Positions 15,604 to 34,311 of a stretch of DNA of 64,000 bases are shown in pieces. The stretch is taken from assembly GCF_008802355.1 (NCBI RefSeq), contig NZ_VZRA01000004.1:135693-199692 (forward strand), in the 5' to 3' direction. How positions within the stretch are numbered: position 1 is the first letter of the stretch; each line of letters starts with the position of its first letter. The translations under genes and the position numbers were made by a program. This DNA comes from Oryzomonas sagensis (lineage in GTDB: Bacteria; Desulfobacterota; Desulfuromonadia; Geobacterales; Pseudopelobacteraceae). The notes below the pieces were generated by a model. That model ran no database searches, had not been told where the DNA came from, and saw only the letters and a list, made by a program, of their open reading frames with translations.

Positions 15604-16199
15604 TTTTAAACTGTGTACAAAGGAATGATTCTACCAGATGCTTTTTTGTTTCGAGGCGTTTAACGCGTTGCTCTTGGGGGCACCATCGAGGAAAATCTCT
15701 AACAACCAGGGTCGCAAATGAGAATCGCATGTAACGGAACCGAGCATATCCCAGCTATCTCGATAACACAGCCACTTCATACCCCAAGCCGGAAGGGGAG
15801 AAATACCTCCACCAAAATTCCGCGAATCGACGGGACTTTCGCGTGACTTCCTGATACCGCTTCTGGAATATTTTGGCAGCGGGAAGGTGACCATCCGAGT
15901 AGAGGACAAACGGGTTTTCCGAAAGCGCTAAAATTATAAAAACAACTGGAAATATCGTAACGTTCCATGCGATTCAGCAGCAGCTGAATTCAATAATATT
16001 ATTGGTTTGAATTACCTGCACCCATTATTGCAAATTTCAATATCACCATTGAAACAAATCGTTTTACCTTATAAATAAAATTCTCTATATATATCATTAA
16101 TATAATTTATGGCTTCAGTTCAGAGGAAAAATTATTTTTTCCTACCGCGATGCCCAGAGCAGAAAAGTCCGGTGCAATCATTGATTGAGGAGAACAGCC
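15604..16199. other. Intergenic region behind selC
   Basis: This 596-nt stretch between selC and the orphan sigma-54 regulator shows no convincing frame. The first 300 nt have mid-range GC and look like decayed coding sequence that I cannot place. The last 200 nt are strongly AT-rich and probably hold the promoter of the regulator, whose GAGGAG ribosome site is at about 16186. Confidence 0.4.
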
Positions 16200-17705
16200 G
16201 TGAATAATAATAGAATTCTCGTTGCTGACGATGAACACCTTATTTCCTCAATGCTTTGTTTCAGGCTTGAAAAGGCCGGATATGTTGTTGAAACGGCAGC
16301 TTCCGGGGGAGAGGCCCTCCAAAAATTTCACGATTTCAAGCCGGAACTCGTGATACTTGACCTCTATCTTCCTGATGCTTTTGGACTCGACCTGCTTGCT
16401 ACAATGAGGGAGGATGATGTTAATCTTCCCTTCATAGTTATTACTGCCAGCTCTTTTGCGGATTTAGCTGTCAAAGCATTCAAGCTTGGTGCAGTCAACT
16501 TTTTCGGTAAGCCGTTCAATGTGGAGAAGGTAGTTCAAGGCGTCACCCAGAGCTTAAAGGAAAAACAGAAAAAAGATGTTGAATCAATTGCCATGGAACG
16601 CCGGAAAAAAACTACGCCGGACCAAATGATTGGTAACTCACCCAAAATGGTTGACGTTTTCCGGCTGGTCAATGTGTGTGCCTCGACTGACGCAAAAACG
16701 GTCCTGATCACCGGGGAAAGCGGTACCGGCAAGGAATTGGTAGCTCGGGCGGTTCACCAGTACAGCGCTCGAGCCGGTGCAACCTTCGTTGAGGTCAATT
16801 GTGCGGCTATACCGGAGAATCTTATTGAAAACGAGTTGTTCGGCCATGAACGCGGCGCATATACCGACGCATCTAAAATGCAGAAAGGTATCTTTGAGCT
16901 TGCCAATGGCGGCACCATTTTCCTGGATGAAATCGGTGACATGCCGACCACGATGCAGACAAAGCTTCTGAAGGTCATGGAAACGAAGCGATTTCGCCGT
17001 CTTGGAGGTGAAGGTGAGGTGGAAACGGACGTGCGCATCATTGCAGCGACAAACCAAGACCTGCCACAACTGGTTGCTGATGGGCGTTTCAGAGGGGACC
17101 TGTATTACCGGCTCAACATGCTGAATATTTGTATTCCGCCACTGCGTGAACGGATCGAGGATATTCCTGCCTTGGTACAATATTTTATACAGAGTCTGAA
17201 TGCTGAGTATAGCAAGAGAGTGGAACTGGTCTCATCCGAGGCATTGGAAGATTTACGTTCCTATTCCTGGCCAGGCAACGTACGCGAACTGCGTAATGTC
17301 ATAGAACGGGCAATGATGCTTGAGAAAGGCAAAGAACTAACGCACTTTCATTTGTGCAAGGAAACTCCGCGGAATCAACAGAGCCTTGAGCTGCCACCGA
17401 GCAATTATACGGTATTTCCGGTAGATGATAGACATTGTTTTGCAGGATTCCAACTGCCCCCCGAGGGAATTTCCTTTGAGGAGGTCGAAAAACAGTTGAT
17501 TACTCTTGCCCTGGAAAATGCCAACGGCAACCAATCAAAGGCGGCAAAATCACTCAAGATGAGTCGTGATACTCTGCGTTACCGCTTGAAAAAATTCGGT
17601 ATTTCGGAGTATGCAGATCAAACTTCCTGCAGTGTATTGAAAGATGATGTTCCAAGTGACCTCAAACGTGAAAGATACAATGACCCCAAATGGGCCAACT
17701 GCTGA
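16200..17705 (+). CDS. Orphan sigma-54-dependent response regulator
   Basis: The product is 501 residues from a GTG start with GAGGAG 8 nt upstream. The receiver domain has Asp54 (VILDLYLPD) and Lys104. The AAA+ domain (about 143-385) has Walker A GESGTGKE (172-179). The sigma-54 loop reads GAYTDA (219-224), a conservative variant of GAFTGA. A Fis-type helix-turn-helix (NGNQSKAAKSLKMSRDTLRY) lies near 455-485, with about 20 extra residues after it. No histidine kinase is adjacent. The closest sigma-54-type promoter found downstream precedes the 4-heme cytochrome at 20759, a plausible target. Confidence 0.92.
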   Translation: MNNNRILVADDEHLISSMLCFRLEKAGYVVETAASGGEALQKFHDFKPELVILDLYLPDAFGLDLLATMREDDVNLPFIVITASSFADLAVKAFKLGAVNFFGKPFNVEKVVQGVTQSLKEKQKKDVESIAMERRKKTTPDQMIGNSPKMVDVFRLVNVCASTDAKTVLITGESGTGKELVARAVHQYSARAGATFVEVNCAAIPENLIENELFGHERGAYTDASKMQKGIFELANGGTIFLDEIGDMPTTMQTKLLKVMETKRFRRLGGEGEVETDVRIIAATNQDLPQLVADGRFRGDLYYRLNMLNICIPPLRERIEDIPALVQYFIQSLNAEYSKRVELVSSEALEDLRSYSWPGNVRELRNVIERAMMLEKGKELTHFHLCKETPRNQQSLELPPSNYTVFPVDDRHCFAGFQLPPEGISFEEVEKQLITLALENANGNQSKAAKSLKMSRDTLRYRLKKFGISEYADQTSCSVLKDDVPSDLKRERYNDPKWANC

Positions 17706-17939
17706 GGACCGTAAGTGCTTGGAAGATGACCAGCCCACTCCCGCGTCATTTCGTTACGTCGGCATGAAGTACCTTTCACCGGCTTTCATCCTGCGGGGCT
17801 AGCGATATCAGGATAATGGCCTCCCCAATGGAGTGTTTTTTTACGTACCGCGGACTTCATGTCAATATGTCGAAAAAATATATGCGCGTCAGGGCAGATA
17901 ACAAATGCGCAAAACAAGGGCGAAGGGAGTAGAAAAACG

Positions 17940-18425
17940 ATGAAACCGCCTGCCGCAATCTTTTTCTACGTCATTTTTTTCATCGTGGCCTCGATGCCTG
18001 CATGGGGATTCGATGGCATGGATATTCCCAAAATCAAGAAGATGGCGGAAGAAGGCAATGCGGATGCCCAATCGAAACTTGGTGTGCTGTATGCTTCCGG
18101 CGTGGGCATAAAAATGGATAAGCAGGAAGCGGTTAGATGGTATCGGAAATCGGCCGAGCAAGGCTACCCGGTTGGTCAGTGGAATCTGGCATTCATGTAC
18201 GTGAGAGGAGAGGGGACCGCAGCCGACTTCACTGAAGCACGCAAACTTTTCCGCAAGTCCGCGGAAAGCGGATTCGCAAACGCCGAATATGATTTGGGAA
18301 TGATGCTTCTTCAAGGGCTTGGCGGCAAGGAGGACCGGGAGGAAGCGGAAAAATGGTTCCGTATGGCCGCGGAACAGGGATATCGGGAAGCTAATAACAT
18401 CCTGAAAGAACTTGATCAGAAGTAG
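17940..18425 (+). CDS. Secreted Sel1-repeat protein
   Basis: The product is 161 residues. A signal peptide ends near MPAWG; the rest is about four Sel1-type alpha-helical repeats (NADAQSKLGVLYASGVGI, EAVRWYRKSAEQGYPVGQWN, EARKLFRKSAESGFANAEYD, EEAEKWFRMAAEQGYREANN). Such solenoids act as protein-binding scaffolds in the periplasm. GGGAG precedes the ATG. It stands alone between the orphan regulator and the cytochrome block; its partner is unknown. Confidence 0.9.
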   Translation: MKPPAAIFFYVIFFIVASMPAWGFDGMDIPKIKKMAEEGNADAQSKLGVLYASGVGIKMDKQEAVRWYRKSAEQGYPVGQWNLAFMYVRGEGTAADFTEARKLFRKSAESGFANAEYDLGMMLLQGLGGKEDREEAEKWFRMAAEQGYREANNILKELDQK

Positions 18426-18683
18426 GTGCCGGACAGCCTGATTTCGGGCGTTGACGAACAATAGTCTCTACCTGTGCAGATGATCAGCGTTATCAAAATA
18501 CGGCCCGGTACCATCCGCTCGGCTCTGGCTGCCAGTCAGTTTTTCCGAACCGTCCTCTGATAATACGTTGGTTGGCGGATTCCGGCCTGCCGCGCAGGCG
18601 CTTTCCTGATAATGAATGTATCGTGACTCTGCAATTGTGCAATTGGTTGCGCACTATATGGGAGCATGGAAAGGGGAGGTGTC

Positions 18684-18974
18684 ATGACTTGTGAAATATT
18701 CAAATGCTGCAAATTTTTCAATGATGTGATTCCGGAAATGCCCAAATCGGCAGACTACATAAAAAACAAATATTGTTTAGGAGATAATAGCTCCTGTGCC
18801 AGGTACCGTGCGTACAAAGATAATAGTGGGTGCGTCAATGCGGCGGCAGTGCCGTTTTTCTTTCTCGCCGACGACGCTCGGGAAATCGAGCGGTGCATGA
18901 AGAGCGAGCATCTGCCGGATGGCACCACAATCCTCCGTTCACTTCTGAATGACTACCTGAATGACGACAAGTGA
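18684..18974 (+). CDS. Small Cys-rich protein of unknown function
   Basis: The product is 96 residues, starting MTCEIFKCCKFFNDVIPEMP, with GGGGAGG before the ATG. Cysteines fall in an N-terminal group (Cys3, 8, 9), a central pair (YCLGDNSSCARY) and two later positions. The layout (Cys cluster, FFND, MP, YC-x6-CARY) recalls small cytosolic proteins common in Geobacter-type genomes, and could hold a metal or iron-sulfur centre. Its end overlaps the start assigned to the following multiheme cytochrome by 14 nt, suggesting translational coupling. Function is unknown. Confidence 0.75.
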   Translation: MTCEIFKCCKFFNDVIPEMPKSADYIKNKYCLGDNSSCARYRAYKDNSGCVNAAAVPFFFLADDAREIERCMKSEHLPDGTTILRSLLNDYLNDDK

Positions 18975-20361
18975 CCGCCGCAACGTTGTGAAGAGCCACA
19001 CGCTCCCATGCATCATGTCAAAGATGCGGGTGGCGTTTCTCCTTCTGGCGGTTATGCTTGCCCCTGCTACAGCAGTAACATATGCCGAGACATGCGTAAC
19101 GTCATCCTGCCATATTCCTTTTAATACCATAAAAAATATGCATCAGCCGGTCAAGGAGTGCGACTGCCTCTCCTGTCATCTGCAAAAAAACAAGGAACAC
19201 CCGTTCAAGGGAGGTAAAAGCTTCGACGTGACTGCCAAGGGGAGTGCGCTGTGCTCTCAGTGCCACGATGCGATGGGAAAAAAGAAAGTAGTACATTCCC
19301 CGGTCAAGGACGGTGACTGCCTCTCCTGTCACAAACCCCACGGCGCAAACGGCCGCTTTCTTCTCGGCGATAGCGAAGACCAGACAGTGCTCTGTCTGGG
19401 CTGCCATGATAGCGCACCTTTCAGCCGGAAATACGTTCACGGCCCGGTGGCGAGCGGGAGTTGCACGACGTGCCATGACCCGCATCAATCTGACGCCAAG
19501 TCCCTTTTAAAAGGCGCTTCCCGCGAAGTCTGCCTGGCGTGTCATGCCCATTTTGCCAAGAAAATGCAGGCTGCGGCGATCATCCACCCTCCCGTGAAGA
19601 AAGAGCCGTGCACATCCTGTCACGACCCGCACAGTTCGGCATGGCCCAACCTCCTGAAACGGGCGATGCCGGACCTCTGTACAGGCTGCCACAAGGAAAC
19701 CGGGAAAAAGATCAAGAACAGTCAAGTCCCCCACAAACCTGTCATTGAGGGCAAGCTCTGCGCCAACTGCCATACGGCCCACTTCTCCAAGGCCCGGGGG
19801 CTGCTTCTGGCCGATGACGAGAAAAGCGCCTGCCTCGGCTGCCACAACACCGACAAGCTTGGCGACCCGGCCCTGAGCAACATCAAAAAGGAACTGGATG
19901 TGAGCAAACACCTGCATGGCCCGATCCAGAAGGGGCGGTGCAGTGGTTGTCATTCTCCCCACGGGTCCGACTTCCCTCATATTCTGGCTGGAAACTACCC
20001 CAGCGATTTTTATGTCGCCTATAATGATGACAGCTACAGCTTATGCACAAAGTGCCATGACAAAAATCTCTTCCGTTTCGCCGAAACGACGCTCTATACA
20101 AAATTCCGTAATGGCAGCAGGAACCTTCACTATGTGCATGTTAACTCCAGTAAGGGGCGCAGCTGCCGGGCTTGCCACGAGCCGCACGCATCAAACGGCC
20201 CAAAGCTGGTCAGTGCCGATGGCGCAAGGTTTGGCCAATGGCGGATCAAGAGCCGTTTTCAACTTACTCCGACCGGCGGGAGTTGCGCTCCGGGATGTCA
20301 CCGCCGCTTTCGTTACGATCGGATAACACCGTTCGACCTGAACGCCACAACTCAAAAATAG
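18961..20361 (+). CDS. Multiheme c-type cytochrome, 13 CXXCH plus 2 atypical sites
   Basis: The product is 466 residues. I count 13 CXXCH motifs (for example CLSCH, CSQCH, CTTCH, CTSCH, CANCH, CRACH), a CX4CH near the mature N-terminus (CVTSSCH) and a CX3CH at the C-terminus (CAPGCH). Many sites are followed by DPH or KPH and spaced about 25-30 residues, the pattern of paired-CXXCH nanowire-type cytochromes. The start is uncertain: the ATG at 18961 overlaps the previous gene, but a signal peptide reads best from the ATG at 19015 or 19024 (MRVAFLLLAVMLAPATAV). It is a periplasmic or outer-surface electron carrier, followed by a strong terminator. Confidence 0.92.
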   Translation: MTTSDRRNVVKSHTLPCIMSKMRVAFLLLAVMLAPATAVTYAETCVTSSCHIPFNTIKNMHQPVKECDCLSCHLQKNKEHPFKGGKSFDVTAKGSALCSQCHDAMGKKKVVHSPVKDGDCLSCHKPHGANGRFLLGDSEDQTVLCLGCHDSAPFSRKYVHGPVASGSCTTCHDPHQSDAKSLLKGASREVCLACHAHFAKKMQAAAIIHPPVKKEPCTSCHDPHSSAWPNLLKRAMPDLCTGCHKETGKKIKNSQVPHKPVIEGKLCANCHTAHFSKARGLLLADDEKSACLGCHNTDKLGDPALSNIKKELDVSKHLHGPIQKGRCSGCHSPHGSDFPHILAGNYPSDFYVAYNDDSYSLCTKCHDKNLFRFAETTLYTKFRNGSRNLHYVHVNSSKGRSCRACHEPHASNGPKLVSADGARFGQWRIKSRFQLTPTGGSCAPGCHRRFRYDRITPFDLNATTQK

Positions 20362-20386
20362 CATCCTTTCATAATCATGCCATTCA

Positions 20387-20412
20387 AAAACGGCGCCTGT
20401 GGGCGCCGTTTT
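20387..20412 (+). terminator. Rho-independent terminator
   Basis: CGGCGCC (20391-20397), a TGTG loop and GGCGCCG (20402-20408) are flanked by A4 and T4, giving an 11-bp extended stem. It ends the 13- to 15-heme cytochrome transcript. Confidence 0.85.
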
Positions 20413-20582
20413 CCATCCAGGATCACGATAACACGGTTTCCGCCTGGTGCATATGCCCCACCTGTTTTTGCGGTCAGAGTGATATCCCCCTCGGCCGCTG
20501 CCTGCACATCCCGCATCCCCAACTTCAAACTATTTTATCTAATATAATCAATGTGTTGTAATTTATAAAAATATTTAAATAC

Positions 20583-20598
20583 TGGCATTTAACTTGCT
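20583..20598 (+). promoter_or_regulatory. Sigma-54 (-24/-12) promoter
   Basis: TGGCAT-N5-TTGCT has the GG and GC exactly 10 nt apart and matches the consensus at all diagnostic bases. The start point would be near 20609, 150 nt ahead of the 4-heme cytochrome start. An orphan sigma-54 activator is encoded at 16200. Confidence 0.65.
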
Positions 20599-20758
20599 AA
20601 ATCATCAATCGACTTGCAACAACAAGGTTCTTGTAAGGAAGCCGTCTCTTTGGGGGAAGAGGTTGTTTCCGAAAGGTTGCAGGGAGTATCGAAAGGGAGC
20701 CTACGTATCATCCACAAGAGCTAACCATTTAGCCCCATTTCAGGAGGAAATTTCATTC

Positions 20759-21568
20759 ATGAATAAACAGATCATTACCCTTGTCGCCCTCGCAGGCATC
20801 GTTGCGGGTACAACCATCGCCTATGGCGCCGCCGGTTCCAATGGCGGCGGTATTGTCGGTTCCAAGCACGATATGAACGTATTTCTCACCACCAACGGCG
20901 GCACGAAAGACCTTGATCAGCGTGTCTGCGCCTACTGCCATACCCCGCACCACGCAGCCGACCCGACGCAAACCGTCACGAAAACGGTGACCAATCCAAC
21001 CACAGGTCTTTCAACGGATATCACGTATAGCGTCTACGTACCTCTCTGGAGCCGTGCCGTTCTCACCTCGACCTTTGACCAGTACGTCAGCGCCACCTTC
21101 AATCCCGCAGCTGACGGCAAATTTTACGACAACATGGCCGGTCCATCACGCCTTTGCATGAGCTGCCACGATGGTGTCACCGCCGTTGACTCCTACTATG
21201 GGAAAACCGGCACCGTAACCCAACTGGGAGACGATCAGATGAACTACTTCGGCCAGAATCACTTTGCCATCGGTCAGTCGTTTGGTCTTGCCAATGATCA
21301 CCCGGTCGGCTTCGTCTATGCCGACATGCAGACAAACCCCAAATATGAGTTGAAAGCTGCCGCTTCACCCATCGGGACCAAGACAATTGCCGATGTCCTC
21401 ACAAACATCGACGGGGTTGGGGCTGTCATGACCTGTGCCTCCTGTCACGACGTCCACAACGGCACTGCGGTGCAAAACACCGCACCCGCTTCCGGACGCG
21501 GTTACTTCCTGCTCGCGGCACAGAAAGACTCCGCGTTGTGCCTCTCATGCCATGACAAGAACAAATAA
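20759..21568 (+). CDS. Four-heme c-type cytochrome (doubled CXXCH family)
   Basis: The product is 269 residues. A signal peptide (ALAGIVAGTTIAYG) precedes GSKHDMNVFLTTNG and four heme sites: CAYCHTPHHA, CMSCHDG, CASCHDVH and CLSCHDK. The SKHD...CHTPHH beginning closely resembles that of the cytochrome at 26826, so the two are paralogues. AGGAGG lies 11 nt before the ATG. It is transcribed alone, from the -24/-12 promoter at 20583 to the terminator at 21602. Confidence 0.92.
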   Translation: MNKQIITLVALAGIVAGTTIAYGAAGSNGGGIVGSKHDMNVFLTTNGGTKDLDQRVCAYCHTPHHAADPTQTVTKTVTNPTTGLSTDITYSVYVPLWSRAVLTSTFDQYVSATFNPAADGKFYDNMAGPSRLCMSCHDGVTAVDSYYGKTGTVTQLGDDQMNYFGQNHFAIGQSFGLANDHPVGFVYADMQTNPKYELKAAASPIGTKTIADVLTNIDGVGAVMTCASCHDVHNGTAVQNTAPASGRGYFLLAAQKDSALCLSCHDKNK

Positions 21569-21601
21569 TTGAATTTGTGTCTGGCATTCGCAGCTCTTTG
21601 G

Positions 21602-21628
21602 GGGCTGCCGGAATCCGGCAGCCCTTTT
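21602..21628 (+). terminator. Rho-independent terminator
   Basis: GGGCTGCCGG (21602-21611) and CCGGCAGCCC (21615-21624) form a 10-bp stem with a 3-nt loop, followed by TTTT. It separates the 4-heme cytochrome from the NHL/barrel operon. Confidence 0.88.
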
Positions 21629-21731
21629 CTTCTAAGAATTTTATATGGTTATGCATATATATTTATACTGGATTTATGGAGCGCGCAATCCGACACAGCA
21701 GTTTATTACCGTTAAACACAAGGGGGATGGC

Positions 21732-22979
21732 ATGAACAGAAGGTGTGTAATTCCTGAAAAGGCGTGGAGCACGGGCGTGAAGTGGGTCGCGTTAACGCTT
21801 TTGTCGATCGCTTTGACCGCCTGCGCCAGCCAATCCACTAATAAGCGAGTTTTCTGGCCCGCTCCTCCCGATTTGCCGCGCGTTCAGTTTTTGATGTCCA
21901 TAAAGGACTCAAACGACGTCATGGAGAGCAAGACGTTATCGCTTCTGGCTCTCAACAGCAGCAACGGCGATGACTTCATACCGGTGGTCAAACCCTACGG
22001 GATCGCCGCCGGTCACGGCAAGATATATATCTGCGATACGGTTCAGGCAGAGGTCCTCATCATTGACCTTCCCAAGAAAAAAATGACCCGCCTGCCGGGC
22101 AATATCAATGCGGGGCGGCTGAAAAAACCGGTAAACGTGGCGGTCGACGAACAGGGCAACATCTATGTCGCCGATACGTCGCGGCTTGAAGTGTTGCAGT
22201 ACGACCCGGAAGGTTCTTTCCTGCGCAGCTTCGGCAGCGGCAAAGATCTGAAACCGGTTGCCGTGGCGGTAGAGGGGGATTTTGTCTACCTCCTGGATCA
22301 GTCCAGCAGCCAGATCCACATCTTCGATCGGATCAGTGGCGATTACCAAAAATCCATCGGCCGTGACGAGGATCCCCGTAGAGGTCTTTCCGGCCCCACC
22401 AACATGGCGGTTGACGGCAAAGGAGCGCTTTACGTCTCCAACTTCGGTACCGGTAAGATCATCAAGCTGGACCGGGACGGCAACTTCCTCATGGGGTATG
22501 GCCGCCTGGGCGTCAACTTCGGTGAATTCGGCCGTCCGCGCGGGGTTGCTGTGGATAATGACGGCCTTGTCTATGTGGTCGACGCCGCCGCACAACAGGT
22601 GCAGATATTTGATGCGCAGATGCAGTTGCTGATGTTCTTCGGCGCTCCGGGCACGCCGGGTTCGCTCAATATCCCGGCCGGTATTGCCGTCACCGGCGAC
22701 AATCTCGACTATTACCAGAAGATGGCCGCACCGGGCTTTATCCTTGACAAGGTGCTCTTCGTGGTGAGCCAGGTCGGTGATCATATGATCAGCATTTACG
22801 GACTGGGCAAGAAACAGGGGCTCGACTACGACGCCGAGTACAAAAAGGCGCTTGCCGATCAGGAAAAACGGGCGGCGGAGGCTTTGGAAAAGGCCCGCAA
22901 GGCTCAGGAGGAAAAGGAGAAGACCCCTGAACAACCAGCTGACGCCGGGAGTAGCGATAGCGCTCCACCGGCAAAGTAG
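21732..22979 (+). CDS. NHL-repeat lipoprotein
   Basis: The product is 415 residues. The lipobox is LTAC. Five to six NHL beta-propeller repeats follow (KPYGIAAGHGKIYICDT, KPVNVAVDEQGNIYVADT, GPTNMAVDGKGALYVSNF, RPRGVAVDNDGLVYVVDA). A charged Lys/Glu helix and a Pro/Ser-rich tail close the protein. AGGGGGA precedes the chosen ATG; the longer N-terminus lacks a ribosome site. It is first in an operon with a 5-heme lipoprotein, an outer-membrane barrel, a second NHL lipoprotein and an 11- to 12-heme cytochrome. It is likely a structural partner of that conduit on the outer membrane. Confidence 0.88.
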   Translation: MNRRCVIPEKAWSTGVKWVALTLLSIALTACASQSTNKRVFWPAPPDLPRVQFLMSIKDSNDVMESKTLSLLALNSSNGDDFIPVVKPYGIAAGHGKIYICDTVQAEVLIIDLPKKKMTRLPGNINAGRLKKPVNVAVDEQGNIYVADTSRLEVLQYDPEGSFLRSFGSGKDLKPVAVAVEGDFVYLLDQSSSQIHIFDRISGDYQKSIGRDEDPRRGLSGPTNMAVDGKGALYVSNFGTGKIIKLDRDGNFLMGYGRLGVNFGEFGRPRGVAVDNDGLVYVVDAAAQQVQIFDAQMQLLMFFGAPGTPGSLNIPAGIAVTGDNLDYYQKMAAPGFILDKVLFVVSQVGDHMISIYGLGKKQGLDYDAEYKKALADQEKRAAEALEKARKAQEEKEKTPEQPADAGSSDSAPPAK

Positions 22980-22997
22980 CGGCGAGGCCATTTCCCT

Positions 22998-23612
22998 GTG
23001 AAGACAACGCATATGAGTGGGCGCCGCTTCAGGTGTCTCGCCCTGTCGGTGTGCCTAATCTGGCTGGTTACTGGCTGCGATCCCGTGACCCGCCATAAGG
23101 CCTTGACCTCTATCCTGGATGGTTACCCAACCTTGCCGCCTGTCGAGGAGATCTGCCGGGAGCACGAAGAGCGGGCTAAGGCGGTCTGTTTACAACAGAA
23201 AACAGCCTCTGTTCCACTCTCACCAACGGCGGCCCGGGGTTCCGAGCACAACCCCTATAAGGAGAAACTCTGCAATTCTTGCCATAAAGCGGACAAGGGG
23301 GGCGGGAGCGGCGGCGAAGATGGACTGTTGATCAAGCCCCGGGAATACCTTTGTGTTACCTGCCACAAGGACCTGCTGACAAAGCGGTTTCAGCACGGTC
23401 CCGCGGCGGTCGGCGATTGCTTGGCCTGTCATCTCCCTCATACCTCCGCCAACCCGGCGCTGCTCAACACGAAGAAAGAGGCTCTCTGCGTCAAGTGCCA
23501 CACCGAGCGCCGCAAAGCGGTCCGTATGCACGACCTGTTCGTCGAAAAGGGAATAACCTGCGATAACTGTCACGATCCCCATTCCGGGGATTCGATGTAC
23601 TTCTTGAAATAG
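22998..23612 (+). CDS. Five-heme lipoprotein c-type cytochrome
   Basis: The product is 204 residues from a GTG start with GAGG upstream; an ATG 15 nt further in is an alternative. The lipobox is LVTGC. Five CXXCH sites occupy the C-terminal two thirds (CNSCH, CVTCH, CLACH, CVKCH, CDNCH), the last followed by DPHSGDS. It lies 18 nt behind the NHL gene and 8 nt before the barrel gene. In porin-cytochrome conduits a small lipoprotein cytochrome plugs into or sits beside the barrel; this one is the best candidate for that role here. Confidence 0.9.
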   Translation: MKTTHMSGRRFRCLALSVCLIWLVTGCDPVTRHKALTSILDGYPTLPPVEEICREHEERAKAVCLQQKTASVPLSPTAARGSEHNPYKEKLCNSCHKADKGGGSGGEDGLLIKPREYLCVTCHKDLLTKRFQHGPAAVGDCLACHLPHTSANPALLNTKKEALCVKCHTERRKAVRMHDLFVEKGITCDNCHDPHSGDSMYFLK

Positions 23613-23620
23613 CCCCCGCA

Positions 23621-25681
23621 ATGGAGACTGCTGCCGGAGCCAAAGGTTTCATGAACCCCGCCTCGATACGAGGCAACACTCAGCCGAGGAGTCCTCTCGG
23701 ACGATGGGATATGCTCCGTTTCCTGGCGCAGGGCATTTGGGTGCTCGGCGCGGCAACCGTGCTGTTTCCCGTCTCAGCCCAAGCGTCGCGTTTCACCTTG
23801 CTCGGCCTGAGCGGTTTGCACCAGTCCGCGGAGCTCAGCTATAACTTCAACGACAATCAGAGTGAGACCAAGTCTACAACGAACCGGTCGACCAACAACG
23901 ATTTCAGCGAAACCTACACCATTGGCGCCGGGTACTCGATTCTACACCCCCGCCTGCTCCGCGGCGACGCGAATATTTCCCTCTCTTCCAATCAGACGTT
24001 GGTGAACAATACCGCGGAAGGCGGTTCTACGGGCACCAACATGCGTATCTCTTACGATGTCAACGGCATCATACTCGACCGTATGAATTACCCCTTCAAT
24101 TTCTCCGTCTCTTCATCCACTGGAACTGTCCGGCCGCCTTTCAGCCGGGCTTACACACTCGACATGGAGAGCCAGAACGTCTCCTTCAGCATCCCAAACG
24201 GGCAATTACCGATTACCGTAACCTACAGCAGAAACGCGTCGACAACCCACGGGCTTGCCGACGACATCGATCAAACCTCTCAGGCGGCATCTATTTCGTT
24301 CCGCAATAGTGTGGACGATCTAAGCAAGACGAGACTTTCCTTCACTCAGTCCTTCGATCGACAGACACTGCTCGGCAGCGAGAGAACCGACAACCGGAAC
24401 GCCATTGTCGTCAACATTGCCAACACCCTGTTCTGGAAAAACATTCAAGGATTGCAACGTCAAATTGATTCAATGTATGTCTACAACGAGCAAAGCGGCA
24501 GTTATCCCGAATTGCAGTCAAGTGTCGCCTCAACTCTCAACTGGCAGATCGGAAAGGCGCTGGACAGCAAACTTGCTTATGTGAAAAGCCGCAACACAGA
24601 TGTGCACAATAACAACGACCAGCAGAGCATATCCGGTTCGCTCTCGCAAAAATATCTCAAGTGCCTGCTGACCACCGTTGGCGGTTCTCTTGCGCAAGGG
24701 AGCTATAATGACGGTTCAGACCGCACCGCCTCGTGGAATGGACGAGTAGCCTATACCAATGAACTGCCCCGGGAGAGCTCGGTCAGGCTCGACTACGGCT
24801 ACCAATATGTAATCCAGGAGCGCAAGCGCTCAGACGTCAACCTGGCAAACGTCGAGAAAACCACTCTCAGCGGCCCCTTTCCCCTGTTTCTCGACTTGGC
24901 GGCCCACAATATCGACAGCGGCACCATCGCCATATTCAAGGACGCCGCAATGACAATCCGCTTCAGCGACTTCAGCACCGTCTTTTCCGGATTTCAGACC
25001 AGGTTGCTGATCAACTCGGACCCCGGTGTTCCTTTTGTCTACATCAGCTATTCGTATCGCCAGAGCCCGAACATCACGTTTGCAACCGCGGGCCATACCG
25101 TCGGTGGAAAGCTCAGCCTGCTCGACAAAAAGTGTGTTCTCCATGCCAATTACAGCTACAGCGACAGCCGGATTCTCGCCGGAAGCGACCCCAGTTCGAC
25201 GATCGGGGCAAATACCCATATCGATGCCGGCATCGACGGTCTACTTGGCCGCCATACCCTGTCTCTCGAATATTCGCTCAATAAGAGTGTTTTTCAGAGG
25301 CTCCAACAAGTCGAGACAAACTGGATACATACCTTGCAAGCTGCGAAGGCGTCGCTTCTGACCAAGGCAAACGATCGGTATTCCTGGTACGAAAACACCT
25401 CTATCGGTACATCATCTACGCAGGGATGGGACAACACCTTTCTTCTCTCCACCGCTTACAGCCGTGTGATCACCCCAAATTTGAGGGGCAAGGCGACACT
25501 GGGGTACTTCAACATGATTACCAGTTCGGTAGTCAGCAACAGATTCAGCATTGAGCTCGGCCTGGAAGGCAACTTCGGCAGAACGGTCGTCACGCTCGAC
25601 TCTTCGGCAAACTGGGGTTTTTCCCCCTCGAGTTATAGTCATAGCCAAACCGTTAACCTGAAATTACGGAGGATATTTTGA
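23621..25681 (+). CDS. Outer-membrane beta-barrel of a porin-cytochrome conduit
   Basis: The product is up to 686 residues. The best signal peptide starts at the ATG at 23711 (MLRFLAQGIWVLGAATV, cleavage near AQA); ATGs at 23621 and 23651 give a long unhydrophobic leader, so the true start is unsettled. The mature chain is made of alternating amphipathic strands rich in Ser, Thr, Asn and Tyr with no heme motif, and ends in LKLRRIF with a terminal aromatic residue. Length and context (cytochromes and NHL lipoproteins on both sides) fit the barrel component of a Geobacter-type conduit. I could not assign it to a named barrel family by eye. Its stop overlaps the next start (TGATG). Confidence 0.8.
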   Translation: METAAGAKGFMNPASIRGNTQPRSPLGRWDMLRFLAQGIWVLGAATVLFPVSAQASRFTLLGLSGLHQSAELSYNFNDNQSETKSTTNRSTNNDFSETYTIGAGYSILHPRLLRGDANISLSSNQTLVNNTAEGGSTGTNMRISYDVNGIILDRMNYPFNFSVSSSTGTVRPPFSRAYTLDMESQNVSFSIPNGQLPITVTYSRNASTTHGLADDIDQTSQAASISFRNSVDDLSKTRLSFTQSFDRQTLLGSERTDNRNAIVVNIANTLFWKNIQGLQRQIDSMYVYNEQSGSYPELQSSVASTLNWQIGKALDSKLAYVKSRNTDVHNNNDQQSISGSLSQKYLKCLLTTVGGSLAQGSYNDGSDRTASWNGRVAYTNELPRESSVRLDYGYQYVIQERKRSDVNLANVEKTTLSGPFPLFLDLAAHNIDSGTIAIFKDAAMTIRFSDFSTVFSGFQTRLLINSDPGVPFVYISYSYRQSPNITFATAGHTVGGKLSLLDKKCVLHANYSYSDSRILAGSDPSSTIGANTHIDAGIDGLLGRHTLSLEYSLNKSVFQRLQQVETNWIHTLQAAKASLLTKANDRYSWYENTSIGTSSTQGWDNTFLLSTAYSRVITPNLRGKATLGYFNMITSSVVSNRFSIELGLEGNFGRTVVTLDSSANWGFSPSSYSHSQTVNLKLRRIF

Positions 25682-26826
25682 TGAAACGCTCACCGCGCCA
25701 TTCAGGGGGACAGCATGGTGGATCATCGGCCGCAATTCCCCTGGCATGGCTTCTGATGCTTGCCCTCGTAATGGGAGGGGCGGGGTGCGCCATTGCCCCT
25801 GCGCCGCACGCCGCGACAATGATCGATAAGATCGTCTGGCCGCCCCCGCCCATGGCGCCCCGCATCGTCTGGGTCCAAACCATCGCCACTGGCAATGATG
25901 TCGGAATCCGCAAGGGGTTCTGGGGCAGATTATGGGGCACGGTCTTTGGTGAGGAGGCGATGCGCATCACACGCCCCTACGGCCTCCACGTAGATGGCAA
26001 AAGGAGAATTTTTATCGCGGATACGGGAGGGCAGGCCATTCATGTCATCGATCGGGCTTCGGGACGTTACGAACTGGTCAGGGGGGATGAAGCCAACCGG
26101 CTCTTGTCGCCGATCGGCGTTGCGGAGGATAGGCGCGAAATTATCTACGTGAGCGACTCGGCAGCGGGAAAAATCTATCGGTTCAATCTTAACGATTTAA
26201 AGATTGGGGCGTTCATATCCCAGGGGCTGCAGCGCCCGACCGGCATCGTTTATAATCCGCACAACGACCTGCTTTATGTCAGCGATACCCTGGCCGGCCA
26301 GGTGGTAGCGTTCACTACCCAAGGCAGGGAAGTCTTCCGTTTCGGCATGCCGGGTGAAAATCCGGGGCAATTCAACCGTCCCACGGATCTGGCGACCGAT
26401 GGAGGGGGACGTCTCTTCGTAACCGATGCACTCAATGGCCGGGTGCAGATATTTGCCGCCAATGGGGTCTATCTGAAAGGATTCGGCAAACAAGGCGACG
26501 CGTCGGGACTCTTTGCCAAACCCAAAGGGATCGGCATTGACAGCGAAGGGCATATGCATATCTGCGATGCCCTCTTCGATACGGTACAGATATTCGACGA
26601 AGACGGGCAATTTCTGCTCAGCTATGGCAACCGGGGGAGCGGCAAAGGAGAACTCTGGATGCCGTCGGGGCTTTTTATCGACCACAATGATTTCATATAT
26701 GTCGCCGACACGTACAACAACAGGCTCCAGGTGTTCCGGTACATCCGGGAGGTAAAGGAAGATTCGCAGGCTGAGGCCGCTTTGGGGGCGGTTGAAGAAC
26801 AGGCATTCGATAAAGGAGAACCGTGA
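25681..26826 (+). CDS. Second NHL-repeat lipoprotein
   Basis: The product is 381 residues. A lipoprotein signal (GGAGC) precedes an IVWPPPPMAPRIVWV segment nearly identical in pattern to that of the NHL lipoprotein at 21732 (VFWPAPPDLPRVQFL). About six NHL repeats follow (RPYGLHVDGKRRIFIADT, RPTDLATDGGGRLFVTDA, KPKGIGIDSEGHMHICDA, MPSGLFIDHNDFIYVADT). It is translationally coupled on both sides: TGATG with the barrel gene and TGATG with the cytochrome behind it. It is a paralogue of the first NHL gene, presumably part of the same outer-membrane complex. Confidence 0.9.
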   Translation: MKRSPRHSGGQHGGSSAAIPLAWLLMLALVMGGAGCAIAPAPHAATMIDKIVWPPPPMAPRIVWVQTIATGNDVGIRKGFWGRLWGTVFGEEAMRITRPYGLHVDGKRRIFIADTGGQAIHVIDRASGRYELVRGDEANRLLSPIGVAEDRREIIYVSDSAAGKIYRFNLNDLKIGAFISQGLQRPTGIVYNPHNDLLYVSDTLAGQVVAFTTQGREVFRFGMPGENPGQFNRPTDLATDGGGRLFVTDALNGRVQIFAANGVYLKGFGKQGDASGLFAKPKGIGIDSEGHMHICDALFDTVQIFDEDGQFLLSYGNRGSGKGELWMPSGLFIDHNDFIYVADTYNNRLQVFRYIREVKEDSQAEAALGAVEEQAFDKGEP

Positions 26827-28457
26827 TGTTGAACATAGTATGGCCTGTACTGACGCTGATGGCATCTTTGATCATTACCATCGCCACGCCTGCTCCGGCA
26901 GGGGCGGCAGGGATACTGAACAGCAAGCATAATCTGTCCGTATCGGGCCCCGGTTCCATCAAGGCGCTCAACGAAGAGCGGGTCTGTATCTTCTGCCACA
27001 CCCCCCATCACGCGAATCCCTCCACACCGCTCTGGAGCCGCCCGACAAGCACGGCCATCTACGATCTGTACCAGTCATCCACGCTGGTGGCAAAGCCGGG
27101 GCAACCGAGCGGTTCCGCACGTCTCTGCCTCAGCTGCCACGACGGCACCATTGCTCTGGGGACCTTTTACGGCTCTTCGGAAGCAATCGCGATGGCAGGA
27201 GGAATAACTACCATACCAGCCAACTACCCAACCAACCTGAAAACCGACCTGCGTGACGACCACCCCGTATCCCTTGCCTATACAAACGAATTGGCCCAGC
27301 AGAACGGGCAGCTCAACACCCCCGGCTCTCTTCCCCATGCAATACGGCTCGAAGAGGGCGGAATGCTGCAGTGCACAGCCTGCCACAACCCCCACAGCAA
27401 CAACTACGGCAAATTCCTGGTTATGGATAACTCCGGCTCAGCCCTTTGCACCGCCTGTCACAACATAACCGGCTGGCGTACCTCCACCCATGCCGCCGCA
27501 GGCCAGGGCGCGGGCTGTACGCTCTGCCATGCCAGCCATAATGCCGGCAGAAATGCACGTCTGCTCAAATTCGCCATCGATGACGCCAATTGTTTGCAAT
27601 GTCATTCGGCAACGGGGGGGAGCATAGACGTTGCGACCGCCATTACCAAGTTCTACAATCATCCCGTGGGGGCCACCAGCGGCATCCACGACCCCACGGA
27701 AAACCCGCTGACCGCCCTGAAGCATGTTGAATGTGAAGATTGCCACAACCCTCATCAGTCGAAGAGCGCTTCCGCGTCGGCGCCGGCTGCGCCTGGTCCG
27801 CTCCTGGGGGTAAGGGGAGTTTCGAGCGCCGGGGCGGTGCTCCCCTCGTACGCTGCAAATGAGTATGAGATCTGTTTTCGCTGCCATGCAGAGAACAGTT
27901 TTTACGGCACACAGACGATCGTCAGGCAGATACAAGAGCTTAATACGCGGCTGGTGTTTGACATCTCAAACCCGTCTTTCCACCCGGTAGTGGGCATCGG
28001 TAAGGGGGGCAACGTGCCGAGCCTGCGAACTCAGTACAGTGTCAGCAGCATGATTTACTGCTGCGACTGCCACGCCAACGACGATAGCAGCCAGGCTAAA
28101 GGACCGCACGGTTCAAACTTTAAACATATCTTGGTTGCCCGTTATGAAACGGAAATCTACCCGCTTGTCTACAGTGATGCCAATTATGCACTCTGCTATC
28201 GCTGCCATGATCAGAATATTCTGCTTGATCCCGGCAAATCTGCATTCTCGGGCCACCAGCAGCATCTTGTTACCCACAAAGTACCTTGCTCGGTCTGCCA
28301 TGCCCCCCATGGAGTCCCGCAGGCCCGAGGAGCCACCACCGCGGCCAACTCTCATCTCATCAATTTCGACATCCGTTTTGTCACATCAGGAACATACGAC
28401 TCCACGGCACGAAGCTGCACGGTAAGCTGCCATGCGACCAATCCGAAATACTATTGA
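26826..28457 (+). CDS. Multiheme c-type cytochrome, 11 CXXCH plus one CX3CH
   Basis: The product is 543 residues with a signal peptide ending near APAGAAG. Heme sites in order: CIFCH, CLSCH, CTACH, CTACH, CTLCH, CLQCH, CEDCH, CFRCH, CCDCH, CYRCH and CSVCH, then CTVSCH (CX3CH) at the C-terminus. The N-terminus (NSKHNLSVSG...CIFCHTPHHA) matches the 4-heme cytochrome at 20759. AAAGGAG precedes the ATG, which overlaps the NHL stop codon. It closes the operon and is probably the main periplasmic or surface heme chain of the conduit. Confidence 0.92.
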   Translation: MLNIVWPVLTLMASLIITIATPAPAGAAGILNSKHNLSVSGPGSIKALNEERVCIFCHTPHHANPSTPLWSRPTSTAIYDLYQSSTLVAKPGQPSGSARLCLSCHDGTIALGTFYGSSEAIAMAGGITTIPANYPTNLKTDLRDDHPVSLAYTNELAQQNGQLNTPGSLPHAIRLEEGGMLQCTACHNPHSNNYGKFLVMDNSGSALCTACHNITGWRTSTHAAAGQGAGCTLCHASHNAGRNARLLKFAIDDANCLQCHSATGGSIDVATAITKFYNHPVGATSGIHDPTENPLTALKHVECEDCHNPHQSKSASASAPAAPGPLLGVRGVSSAGAVLPSYAANEYEICFRCHAENSFYGTQTIVRQIQELNTRLVFDISNPSFHPVVGIGKGGNVPSLRTQYSVSSMIYCCDCHANDDSSQAKGPHGSNFKHILVARYETEIYPLVYSDANYALCYRCHDQNILLDPGKSAFSGHQQHLVTHKVPCSVCHAPHGVPQARGATTAANSHLINFDIRFVTSGTYDSTARSCTVSCHATNPKYY

Positions 28458-28989: not shown

Positions 28990-31900
28990 ATGAAACGATT
29001 CGGAATAAAGACAGGCTTACTGACGGCAACAGCTGCCGCCAGTCTGGCCTTGACGGCCGGCACTTCGTTTGCCGCCCATCCGTCAGTCACGCTGTACACA
29101 TTCGAAGAGATCGGCATGCAAATGGCTGGTGGAGCGAAAGTCCCGGTACAGGTGGACGCGAACGGGAAAGGCATGCCCTACAGCCCGAAGCAGACGTGCG
29201 GTACTGCAGGCTGCCACGTGAAGAACGGCGTCGATTACACCTATGACAAGATATCCGACCACGCTTTTCACTCGAACCAAGGCAGAAGTGAGTACGTCGA
29301 CTCTTCCACCGGAAAATTTGATGCCACCAAGAACAAACCATGGACCCAGTCGACCGCCATGGTTGGCAAGTGGTGAAGCCCCTCTCTTCGCCAGGTGGCG
29401 AACCTCATGAATCAAACTCCAGGCAATACGAATATTTCATCATTGAATTATGTCAGTAATTTGAGCAATTTCGTATCCGGCAGCACCAATACTGTCACCC
29501 CCGGCACCACTCCGAACACCGGAAGCCAGTACACCATGGTCGATCTTTCGGCCTGGGACCTGGCTACGACATGCGGCAGTTGCCATCCGGGCGGCGGCTT
29601 TGTGGAGAAGGACCGAAACGGTAAACGCTTCAGCATGATGAACCCCGCAATTGACGGCTATACACCCTACACCATGACGGTCTTCGATCAGTACTCCGCC
29701 AATACGGGGTTGCCGAAGCATCAGGTCATGGCGTCCCCTTGGTCTTACCCGCTCTACATGAACGGTACGCCCGTTATTACCGGTTCCGGTTGGGGACAGG
29801 CCATGACCATGACCATGCCAGACGGAAGCCAGATGCAGGTTCAAAATGGCCAGGTGATGATGCCTAACGTCAAGGAAATGGACTGCCTGATGTGCCATTT
29901 CGACGGTTTCAACAACCTGATGTCGTCGGTGATGGCCTACAGCGGCGCCCATAACGCCACCCCCTCATTCGGTGCGGGCTTTATGAACATGTTTACCCAG
30001 GCCTACGACTTCACCACCGGCTTACTGACAAAGAATGCCGACAACACCGTGTCCCTCTCCCCGACGGCGTTGGCCAAGTTGGAAGCCAACCCTTCAAGCC
30101 AGAATTGCCGTAACTGCCACATGCCTTCGGGCCTTAAAGACCTTCCCGACATGATGCGCGACTTCCTCTCCAGCGCCCCGATGGCCTACACCGGCAGCTT
30201 CACGCAATCGTTTACCGGCCTTTCTATGCCGGCCTTCGACTTCAACGCCCCGTTTGGCAACACGTGGGATTGGGCACTGAGCCCATACGCGACATCCCCT
30301 ACTCTGTACATGACCATGACCGGTATCAGCAGCACGACCCCCGGTTTCGTCACTACGATTCCGGCCGGATGGCCGTCCGCCATGGGGATGTCCGAATTCA
30401 ACAAGGCCGCATTTGCCAATTTCTCCACGGCCATGCCCGGCATGAAGCAGTACTTCCTGGGCGGCGGCAACCCTGCCGGCAGCGGTCCGATTTATTTTCA
30501 GGCCAGCCTTCCCAATGGCATGCAGAACCAGAATGCTCTTAAGAAAGGCGTTGTGCCTTTCCCGCGTGCCGAATGGTTCAAACGAGGCGACCTATGGGCT
30601 CCCGGCTACGACGTACACCTTACCCTTGAATGTGCCGGCTGCCACATGAATACCAACACCACAAAAGTCGATGTATTTGCAGCGCCCCTGGATTCCAGCA
30701 ATCCAAACACTATTTTTGACGGCAAGAGCCTCTGCGACCCGGGTAAGGGGTATGACAGCGCGGCAGGTGTAGAAGGCAATGCAGCCAAGAGAACTACCGT
30801 CAATAGCCAGAATACGGTCAAGAAATGCGAGAATTGCCACATTACCGGCAAAAACAGCGATGGTGTCGCCATCGATACCTTCGGCGCGACCAATCCGTTG
30901 ACAGCTCATCAGAATGCAGGCCTGCTGGCCAATATCACCCAGGCGGTCAAGACGACAACCGGCAGCAACGAAGTGCCGTTTGTCGGCAACCATCTTGATG
31001 TCATGGATTGTACGGTCTGCCATATCGCTCGCGAGCAGATGGTCGTCCGCGAACTGGACTCCACCTCCGGCAACCGCTATCCCAATATGCTCGGATATGC
31101 TACGGAACGCGGCATGTTGGGTATGTTTTCCGACCCTGGCATGGGAATTCCGGCGAATACCAACCTGAAGAAGTGGGAACCTCTCTTCACGTGGCAGAAG
31201 AATGGCAACTACTACAAAACCTTCGACAATACCAGCACCAACACGAACTGGCGGCGGAAAATCTACGCCGTGAACATCATCACCGCTGCCATCTGGAACA
31301 ACGTGGATCCCCTCGTTGACGCCAACGGCGACGGCGTTACCGGTTCCGCGCCGACGCACCACGCCGGCGATTATAGTGGCGTCCTGACCGCCAATTATGA
31401 TCCCTGGATTGCCCGTGACCTGAAAGCCGGCATGAATTTCGGTCCTTCCGGTTTTGCTCCAATCCCGGTCGGATTCGGCAACGGTTCCTACCAGAGCGCC
31501 TATGACCAAACCGGCGCCTTCACCGGGGCATGGAAGTACGTCGGCGTGTACGGCGGCAACGTCCTGTTTTCGACCCCGGAAGAGATATCGGGCTACAAGG
31601 CGTATCGCAACGCCATCAAGGGCTCGGTTGACAACAAGGATTGGACAAAAACCCAGCTTACTTTCCTGGGTGGCCCTTACAAATTGACCCACGGCGTACG
31701 GCCGATACAGACCTATGTCCTCGGCACAAGTTGCGCCGACTGCCATTCTTCCGCACCCAAAACCTCCTTATTCGCAGGTGATTTCGATATGCTCGGCACA
31801 GCCGTCAAAGCTGTGGCGGGGCAGCAATTCATGCAATCCCCGGCTTCGCAACTCGAAGTTGTGGGCTTGCAGGATGATATCGAGACCGGCGCCGAGTTGT

Positions 31901-32706
31901 CGACCAAGGCCGGCGGCGCCCTTGAAGTCAAGTTCGACGAGCTTGGCACCTGGAGCGGAAGTACTTTCACCGCAGATGCCTCTGGAACCTACAAAAGGGT
32001 AAAACCTCTCGACAGGTCTGCAGCTCTTTATCCGATCGACGGCACCTTCACTGACGTCAAAGGGAACACCTATGCCAATCGGACGGCATGGGTAAGCAAC
32101 TACCTCGCCAATGAAAACGCCATCAATGCGGCGAAGTTCGGAATCGGCGTAAAACCGTTCGCCAACTTCTCATCCAACTTCACCGATATCGACACGGCGG
32201 CCCCTGGCATACAGGTCGCCAAAGGTGTCGCCCAACCGCTGGCAGCCTATGCGGCAAAACCGGGTGACGCAGGCATCTCTACCTACACCTGGACCTCCAG
32301 CGACGGCACCGTCATCGCTCCCGGCAAAATCTCCAGCGTGACTTTTGCCACCATCGGGCTGAAGACCATCACCCTGAAGGTTACCGACGAAAGCGGGAAT
32401 GTCGCATCGGCAACACGGCAGGTCGAGGCCGTTGTTCCGGTTGCCGACGTCATAGCCTGGGCGGACAACCCCGGCAATCTCGGCGGTACGCTTACCGTCA
32501 CGTCTTTGCCAACCCCCAACGACAAGGTCAAGGTCATCTGGGGCGACGGCAAATACGATTATATCACCACCATCGATGCTCTATCCGTTTCCAAGGCCCA
32601 CACCTATAGTGTGGCCGGAAACAAGACGGTCGAGATTTACGTCTACAAAAACGGTATCCAAAAGGGATACTTCAAGAAGACCATCACCGTTGACGGCACG
32701 AACTAA
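28990..32706 (+). CDS. Selenocysteine-containing multiheme cytochrome c, ExtKL-like
   Basis: One frame of 1238 residues if the in-frame UGA at 29374-29376 is read as selenocysteine (residue 129, context VGKW-Sec-SPSLRQV). A signal peptide (TAGTSFA) comes first. Heme sites are a CX4CH (CGTAGCH) before the UGA and CGSCH, CLMCH, CRNCH, CAGCH, CENCH, CTVCH and CADCH after it. A C-terminal PKD/Ig-like tail follows from about residue 1070. The second part has no ribosome site or signal peptide of its own, and a stem-loop of SECIS type follows the UGA at the correct distance. Geobacter ExtKL has been described as a (seleno)protein cytochrome of outer-membrane conduits; the match to that family is from memory. 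A terminator lies 33 nt behind the stop. Confidence 0.85.
29387..29402 (+). promoter_or_regulatory. Bacterial SECIS element
   Basis: TTCGCC-AGGT-GGCGAA forms a perfect 6-bp stem with a 4-nt loop. It begins 11 nt after the UGA codon, the spacing known for the SelB-bound helix of E. coli fdhF. Its loop AGGU matches the start of the fdhF apical loop (AGGUCU), including the two G residues that SelB needs. Confidence 0.8.
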
Positions 32707-33294: not shown

Positions 33295-34311
33295 ATGAAA
33301 CACTCAGCCATGCTTCTAAAATCAATGATTTCATTGTGGATGTTGCCGTTATTGATTTCAGCATGTTCGGTTACATCATCGAATGTAACCCCGCCATTAT
33401 CAACTACCGAAATCTCCGCAACCGATCTCAAAAAAACAGCAGCAAGAGTGAATGACAAAGATATTACCGTCGCCGAACTCAAGCGGGCTCAAATAATTTT
33501 AATGGCGGACCGACCCGGTTTACAAATTCCACCATCTCTGCAAAAGGAATTTGAAATGCAGGCTCTCAATCAATTGATCAGTTCGGAACTGCTTTTCCAG
33601 GCTGGCCAGAAGCTTGATATAAAAGATCTCGACAAACAGGCTGATGCAAAGCTGGCTAAAATCAAAAATGGCTTTTCCGATGCCAAGGATTATGACAGGG
33701 CGCTCCAAAATATCGGAATGAATGAGAAGATGCTCTATGACGACACTCGCCGAGAACTGGTCATCAGCAATTTTGTCAAAACGAACATCTCTTCCAAAAT
33801 TACGGTCAGCGACGAAGAGATCAAAAAGTTTTATGACCAGAATCCTGACAAGTTCCGTCAGGATGAACAGATTAGGGCTAGCCATATATTGATAGGTGTT
33901 GACAGCAAAGCAGGGATTGAAGCGAGGAAGGCGGCTCGTGAAAAGGCCGAGAAACTTCACAATGAACTGTTAAACGGTGCTGATTTTGCCACACTGGCCA
34001 AGGCAAATTCAACCTGTCCCAGCGCTAAGCAAGGAGGCGATCTGGGCTTTTTCGGTAGAGGCAAGATGGACCCTCAATTCGAACGGGCCGCTTTTGCTCT
34101 TGAACGGGGAGGTCTGAGCAACGTAGTGGAGACACGATTTGGCTATCATATAATCAAGTTGCTGAACCTGAAGAAAGCAGAGACTGTCTCCCTGTCTGAA
34201 GCCAGGGATAAGATCGAAGATTATCTCAGAACTCAAAAAACGAATGCGGCTATTGGAGATTTTGTTGGCGGGGCACGTAGAAGCGCCAAAATTGACGTGC
34301 TGCTGCCATAA
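33295..34311 (+). CDS. Lipoprotein peptidyl-prolyl isomerase (SurA/PrsA type)
   Basis: The product is 338 residues. A lipobox (LISAC) is followed by a SurA-like N-terminal chaperone region (about 45-190) and one parvulin domain (about 195-295: QIRASHILIGVDS, AKQGGDLGFFGRGKMDPQFE, VVETRFGYHIIKL). GGAGGA lies before the ATG. Parvulin lipoproteins assist folding of exported proteins; several Geobacter cytochrome clusters carry one, and here it follows the seleno-cytochrome. It may help mature those cytochromes (inference). Confidence 0.92.
   Translation: MKHSAMLLKSMISLWMLPLLISACSVTSSNVTPPLSTTEISATDLKKTAARVNDKDITVAELKRAQIILMADRPGLQIPPSLQKEFEMQALNQLISSELLFQAGQKLDIKDLDKQADAKLAKIKNGFSDAKDYDRALQNIGMNEKMLYDDTRRELVISNFVKTNISSKITVSDEEIKKFYDQNPDKFRQDEQIRASHILIGVDSKAGIEARKAAREKAEKLHNELLNGADFATLAKANSTCPSAKQGGDLGFFGRGKMDPQFERAAFALERGGLSNVVETRFGYHIIKLLNLKKAETVSLSEARDKIEDYLRTQKTNAAIGDFVGGARRSAKIDVLLP

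Follow-up and report, generated by a model that had tools for sequence, protein, structure and literature searches.

The question raised by this locus is whether the UGA codon at positions 29374-29376 ends a short gene or is translated as selenocysteine (Sec) inside a long multiheme cytochrome gene, and what a Sec residue would do in such a protein. The window, that is the whole stretch of 64,000 nucleotides that was analysed, comes from a genome of 3.61 Mb in 18 contigs. The cytochrome gene with its elements, the tRNA-Sec and LysR genes, the upstream cluster and the isomerase gene described below all lie on its forward strand.

Reading Frame and Gene Product

Two open reading frames, ORF1 (28990-29376, 128 aa) and ORF2 (29395-32706, 1103 aa), shared a common frame, so that the coordinates in the ORF list confirmed the two frames of 128 and 1103 codons described in an earlier reading of the DNA letters (the sequence-only reading). 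The 18 nt which that reading had placed between them were also found, but they follow the UGA that closes ORF1 instead of beginning with it, and stay open up to the first GTG. With the UGA read as Sec, positions 28990-32706 encoded a protein of 1238 aa with Sec as residue 129, in the motif G-K-W-U-S-P-S-L-R-Q. The chance of 1109 open codons following a random stop was ~3e-19 from base composition, a figure of limited weight, as a separate downstream gene would likewise stay open.

The 1238-aa protein contained eight heme sites, one N-terminal and seven C-terminal to Sec. Heme site 1 (29197-29217) was the single motif attributed by the sequence-only reading to the first frame, with the correction that it is a CX4CH motif (CGTAGCH) and not CXXCH; C42, C47 and H48 were invariant in 34/34 aligned sequences, and some homologues had CXXCH at this place. 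Heme sites 2 to 8 (29572-31746; starts at 29572, 29884, 30106, 30631, 30826, 31009 and 31732) were all CXXCH and likewise invariant (34/34). The N-terminus resembled a signal peptide by eye, and with several CXXCH sites after it the window protein was classed as a multiheme c-type cytochrome. A PKD domain occupied residues 1070-1145 of the C-terminal region (32197-32424; Pfam PF18911, 35.8 bits, cut-off 27). No second copy was found in the same genome by protein search (E <= 0.01). Searching solved structures with the single protein returned four weak matches only, to collagenase-type chains and in the PKD region, and with the profile weak matches to small cytochromes only (best NapB, E 0.0019).

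Homologues and the Residue at the UGA Position

Fifteen loci were recovered when public genomes were scanned with the window protein: nine from Geomonas, one from Geomesophilobacter, one from a Geobacter metagenome-assembled genome (MAG), two from a Geobacteraceae MAG, one from a Desulfuromonadaceae MAG and one from a 'Deltaproteobacteria' MAG. When these loci were scanned for the motif with a stop demanded at the site, 26 more copies turned up, every one with TGA. The sequences fell into three groups: A, which resembled the window protein (M-V-G-K-W-U), B (H-N-G-K-W-U), and C, a shorter paralogue (W-U-P-P-S-A-R-Q). Of the genomes of the order to which the window belongs, 28/141 were matched by a profile built from 24 sequences (E <= 1e-20), as were 13/395 genomes drawn from the phylum (E <= 1e-15); at most five (order) or two (phylum) candidates were scored per genome, so that some copies could have escaped.

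In a profile search that set no condition on a stop, covering all loci collected, the Sec column over 64 distinct contexts contained 52 TGA, 6 Cys and 6 Ser, and no other residue; neither TAA nor TAG occurred among the 64. Cys and Ser homologues read continuously across the site and had the eight heme sites unless cut by a contig end. The Cys members came from other families of the phylum (loci L077, L086/L102, L087/L107, L093/L100, L095/L098 and L070/L097). Ser members adjoined group B in Geomonas (L014, L018 and L022), where these paralogues retained all eight heme sites. Additional loci also had Ser members, with L079 lying outside the order. The Sec residue proposed in the sequence-only reading was thus borne out by a column of Sec, Cys or Ser only.

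Conservation was examined in 34 aligned sequences, picked for diversity from 59 that all had at least 400 residues after the site. The eight heme sites, the Trp preceding the Sec column and the R-Q following it were invariant in this alignment, as were five His outside the heme motifs; no Cys outside the heme sites was shared by 28 or more of the 34. Within the 24 Sec sequences, W100, Sec, P103, S104, R106 and Q107 were invariant (24/24), and apart from the heme sites few stretches were as well conserved as the motif surrounding Sec. From these comparisons and those of the hairpin and the Sec genes below, the gene almost certainly encodes a true selenoprotein, with Sec inserted at UGA 129.

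Possible Roles of the Sec Residue

Sec, replaced by Cys in some homologues and by Ser in others, was always beside Trp and between heme sites 1 and 2, and its most likely role, put forward tentatively, is that of a selenol(ate) near one heme, either redox-active or catalytic. AlphaFold2 models of the window protein (with 24 sequences; mean pLDDT 46.9) and of the shorter paralogue (with 29 sequences; mean pLDDT 43.7) were both too poor to use: the means were below 50, and neither model places the Sec near a heme. A Sec residue that is not near a heme and takes no part in electron transfer is somewhat unlikely; its function would be structural or protective, for example in a diselenide or selenylsulfide with another protein. 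Such a function agrees with the Ser at this position in Geomonas paralogues, none of which has lost a heme site; the partner would have to be another protein, since no non-heme Cys was shared by 28 or more of the 34 sequences. It is opposed by the conservation of the surrounding motif, and by a column that was never other than Sec, Cys or Ser.

A more specific form of the redox-active selenol(ate) is doubtful: in an octaheme reductase working outside the cell, the Sec selenolate might itself be the axial ligand of a c-type heme or form the active site right above such a heme, and a second Sec-decoding set beside the conduit might be present in some organisms to serve it. As five invariant non-motif His were present for eight heme sites, up to three hemes would have no conserved His partner, a gap that Sec or Cys might fill as a ligand. 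To our knowledge, a natural selenolate-ligated c heme would be new. The residue five positions before Sec (Met in group A, His in group B and nearly all of group C) was considered as a heme ligand and dropped, because it was not conserved in the Cys and Ser homologues, which had Lys, Met or Val there.

Hairpin Downstream of the UGA

The hairpin UUCGCC-AGGU-GGCGAA (29387-29402; stem 29387-29392 and 29397-29402, loop AGGU 29393-29396) had 6 bp and started 10 nt behind the UGA. The 6-bp hairpin described by the sequence-only reading was thus present, but as a single sequence it was unremarkable: the hairpin of the window alone was ordinary (z -0.5 to -0.9), and the 71-nt stretch favoured an alternative fold that pairs through the UGA. 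When 45 nt were resampled with synonymous codons, 21% of the resamplings had a hairpin of at least 6 bp at some place, and 79/20000 had all six pairs at the observed register. The significance of the hairpin comes from the comparison across homologues and not from the window sequence by itself.

With the T of UGA counted as 0, positions 13-18 paired with 23-28. At this fixed offset, 306/312 pairs were formed over 52 Sec contexts, as against 23/66 over 11 Cys/Ser contexts. Pairing over 37 distinct Sec 33-mers was 97.7% (52.6 +/- 2.5% in synonymous codon resampling), and in the 11 Cys/Ser homologues it was 34.8%, not above their own null (39.3 +/- 4.3%). Among 23 of the 37 Sec 33-mers, slid registers were at most 70.3% paired (97.1% at the true register), and 17 cells changed on both sides, a value as high being reached in 0/500 shuffles, which ignore the relatedness of the sequences. 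Two of five covariation measures, the pairs with two-sided change and the further pair types, were unexceptional (60 and 136 of 500), and three of the six pairs never varied. Judged by these alignments, the hairpin keeps its register and covaries in the TGA members, and homologues with Cys or Ser show no conservation of it, so that the SECIS proposed in the sequence-only reading was upheld by both pairing and covariation.

In common with bacterial SECIS elements of the E. coli fdhF type, the hairpin was a short stem-loop directly after the UGA and within the coding region. It differed in a register fixed over the R-Q codons and in a 6-bp stem without the bulged U of the fdhF element.

These results bear on the reading of the UGA as a true stop, with two coupled or separate genes for a 128-aa exported protein and a large cytochrome. 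Under the standard code ORF1 does end at the UGA, and the GTG of ORF2 comes 18 nt on. The sequence-only reading had seen no ribosome site for the second frame; this held by eye for the GTG at 29395, with nothing of the kind upstream, but not for the ATG at 29407, ~30 nt after the UGA, which has AGGTGG 8 nt upstream, itself part of the hairpin (by eye). The available text of Fujita et al. (2007; PMC1914089) also retained a conserved operon as the alternative for the Sec cytochrome ExtKL. Against separate genes, the Cys and Ser homologues were continuous across the site, TGA was the only stop in the column, the hairpin was conserved and covarying in TGA members and not in Cys/Ser members, groups B and C had other codons at the position of the ATG, and ORF2 would have no signal peptide, on which the sequence-only reading was right by eye. 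A true stop is therefore very improbable.

Sec Genes and Their Linkage to the Cytochrome Gene

The source genome contained all of selA, selB and selD, which the sequence-only reading had proposed to look for: selA (a match to the SelA N-terminal domain), two selB (75% identical over 636 aa) and selD, with an in-frame TGA of its own. It also contained three tRNA-Sec genes. The one in the window (15506-15603) bore out the statement of the sequence-only reading that the window has such a gene, and the other two matched it at 95 and 90 of 98 positions. It was the sole linked Sec gene in the window, 13.5 kb upstream of the cytochrome gene, and directly upstream of this tRNA-Sec gene was a LysR regulator (14513-15472) of the NCBI family 'multiheme cytochrome-associated' (NF041036, 347 bits, cut-off 210).

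Within the order, a selB or tRNA-Sec gene lay within 20 kb of the cytochrome gene in 10/16 group A genomes (expected ~0.5) and in 0/11 group B genomes, with p-values that are too small because the genomes share ancestry; the one other genome with matches, G052, had group C only, and G090, with both A and B, was counted under A. Two or more tRNA-Sec genes were present in 8/16 group A genomes (1/125 of the others), and two or more selB in 5/16 (2/125 of the others). By the tables, linkage was absent in 6/16 group A genomes. Two of these six, G096 and G050 (88% and 84% complete), had the TGA gene, and no selB in them passed the threshold; locus L013, whose coordinates coincide with the G096 contig, did contain selA together with a cut selB, which makes G096 apparently an eleventh linked genome. 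At locus L010, one stretch held a group C gene, a group A gene, selA, selB, tRNA-Sec and the NF041036 LysR. The linkage had not been foreseen in the sequence-only reading.

Translation of the UGA as an ordinary amino acid (e.g., Trp), by leaky termination or by other recoding, is more improbable still: comparison by itself does not tell which residue is inserted, but the column was otherwise Cys or Ser, a SECIS-like hairpin was present, the genome contained selA, selB, selC and selD, 10/16 group A genomes had selB or selC close to the cytochrome gene, and UGA was a normal stop elsewhere in the window, as in the neighbouring genes at 16185-17705 and 26823-28457. In the preferred reading as Sec, SelB and tRNA-Sec, guided by the 6-bp hairpin 10 nt behind the codon, would insert Sec at UGA 129. 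The extra selC, selB and sometimes selA beside the gene may raise or secure the Sec supply for this long protein. 

In a SelB tree of 25 rows, in which row G054_unl (a poor reading with a very long branch) is to be ignored, the label 'linked' needed six changes. Within the family of the window, five of six linked copies formed a group that also took in one unlinked copy. The linked SelB copies had no single origin over the order, and the idea of a SelB dedicated to this SECIS was therefore not supported.

Neighbouring Genes

Upstream of the gene (18961-28457) were genes for a 13-heme protein, a 4-heme protein, an NHL propeller, a 5-heme protein, a 686-aa protein, an NHL propeller and an 11-heme protein. 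The 686-aa protein (23621-25681) looked like a beta-barrel by eye and had no Pfam or NCBIfam match. Downstream was a PpiC-type peptidyl-prolyl isomerase gene (33295-34311), and several relatives had homologues of it (family F6) close to their cytochrome gene. Propeller, barrel and 10- to 11-heme families recurred before Sec members at L016, L018, L022 and L112, and propeller and 11-heme proteins preceded the Cys member at L107; many other loci were without the barrel and the propellers in the stretch examined. The shared setting of Sec and Cys members suggests a similar role.

On account of the apparent signal peptide, the PKD region and these neighbours, the cytochrome probably belongs to an outer-membrane porin-cytochrome electron conduit. 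It would be exported, with heme attached at its eight sites, and work in this conduit, where a selenol near one heme may act as the reactive group. That the protein is both a true selenoprotein and a member of an outer-membrane conduit is, taken jointly, likewise rather probable.

Comparison With Known Systems

ExtKL of Geobacter sulfurreducens (GSU2937-2936; NF040886) is described as a predicted Sec multiheme cytochrome in the available text of PMC1914089 and PMC5877670. Both it and the window protein are Geobacteraceae multiheme c-type cytochromes in which an in-frame UGA is predicted to encode Sec. The sequence-only reading had named it as a relative, which was not supported. ExtKL had five hemes, all N-terminal to Sec, the motif I-P-D-G-U-P-T-P-N-R-L in 6/6 loci, a frame of about 454-481 aa and no full-length homology with the octaheme family (best hhalign probability 12%). 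The window protein had no match to NF040886 (cut-off 250 bits), and 2/24 family members matched it (best E 0.039). ExtKL was present as a gene of its own in 9/13 genomes carrying the octaheme family, and none was found above the curated cut-off in the source genome. ExtKL was thus rejected as the family of the window protein, on scores below the cut-off, a different motif and heme layout, and the failure to align. In the available text of the 2007 paper, neither non-Sec homologues nor a SECIS were reported for ExtKL (PMC1914089); the octaheme family has both a covarying hairpin and homologues with Cys or Ser.

The octaheme tetrathionate reductase family (TIGR04315) shares eight hemes and has one listed Sec version (PMC13188914, available text). 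Its members are about 470 aa, and profile matches were local and non-colinear, around heme motifs. The cut-off of 375 bits was not reached (best E 0.00036, in 3/24 members, the window protein not among them), and this family was rejected on its far too weak scores and the lack of a colinear profile match.

Large multiheme cytochromes also occur in porin-cytochrome conduits like OetABI and in the SEEP-SRB1 operon, and in the latter the genes for a peptidyl-prolyl isomerase and a six-bladed propeller protein are clustered, as given in the available text of PMC10553843 and PMC5539420. They differ in that no word beginning with 'seleno' occurs in either main text. In the available text of a 2026 review (PMC13188914), the Sec heme-protein entries found were ExtKL, the GSU2204 family and the tetrathionate reductase family; the GSU2204 family (NF041027) was not among the 25 listed of 36 families that matched the octaheme family.

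The octaheme Sec family was not found in searches of an open-access library, nor in the available text of PMC13188914, PMC9312934, PMC12013277, PMC1914089, PMC5877670, PMC2825233, PMC2996986, PMC3495685, PMC12977616, PMC5539420, PMC10553843, PMC9012536 and PMC6389598. The octaheme family is here called a further, separate family of Sec multiheme cytochromes, with Cys and Ser forms and often with linked Sec genes.

Implications

Where annotation allows UGA no meaning but stop, such genes would be broken into two frames, as happened in the ORF list, and heme counts and signal peptides would be misjudged. In several genomes selA, selB, selC and the multiheme-associated LysR cluster with the cytochrome, suggesting that selenium supply and respiration are linked. 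Extracellular electron transfer gains an apparently unlisted selenoprotein family, in which natural Cys and Ser versions allow a direct comparison.

Sec Cytochromes

Heme site 1 of the octaheme c-type cytochromes in which an in-frame UGA is almost certainly read as Sec had a loop whose length varied, at one conserved place in the window's member (29197-29217) and in its homologues; the motif was CXnCH, in which n ranged from 2 to about 11, and the long forms are putative heme sites. In some proteins of group A (M-V-G-K-W-U, the type present in the window), the conserved part was preceded by an N-terminal extension that contained about four to six additional heme motifs (homologue loci L009, 8504-10306; L012, 8573-10306; and L058/L115). 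A profile search of the genomes of the order also listed a group A homologue as having two in-frame TGA codons (L059; G118:C43:1185-4385). With group B (H-N-G-K-W-U), an octaheme paralogue with Ser in the Sec position was located directly 3' of the Sec gene in three Geomonas (L014, 14184-17300; L018; L022).

Downstream of the UGA of ExtKL, a separate five-heme predicted Sec cytochrome of Geobacter, a putative 6-bp hairpin (ACCGAC-7 nt-GTCGGT) was found by eye at all six loci (L116-L121), with an invariant stem that was hence uninformative on covariation, whereas no SECIS was reported for ExtKL in the 2007 paper (PMC1914089).

Sec Genes

Sec cytochrome genes of relatives were clustered with selA, selB, tRNA-Sec and a LysR family regulator (NF041036, multiheme cytochrome-associated), in sets that differed by locus (L009, L010, L011, L012, L013 and L115); the cluster of Sec genes and Sec cytochrome genes at L010 extended over 1572-20194.

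The Oryzomonas sagensis genome (G000) contained three tRNA-Sec genes (G000:C2:464003; G000:C4:151198, which is window position 15506; and G000:C5:45573) and two selB genes (G000:C5:43308 and G000:C1:1051814). The C5 selB was close to a tRNA-Sec gene, and clustered in the SelB tree, with moderate support (90/90), with the selB copies that adjoin the Sec cytochrome in relatives.
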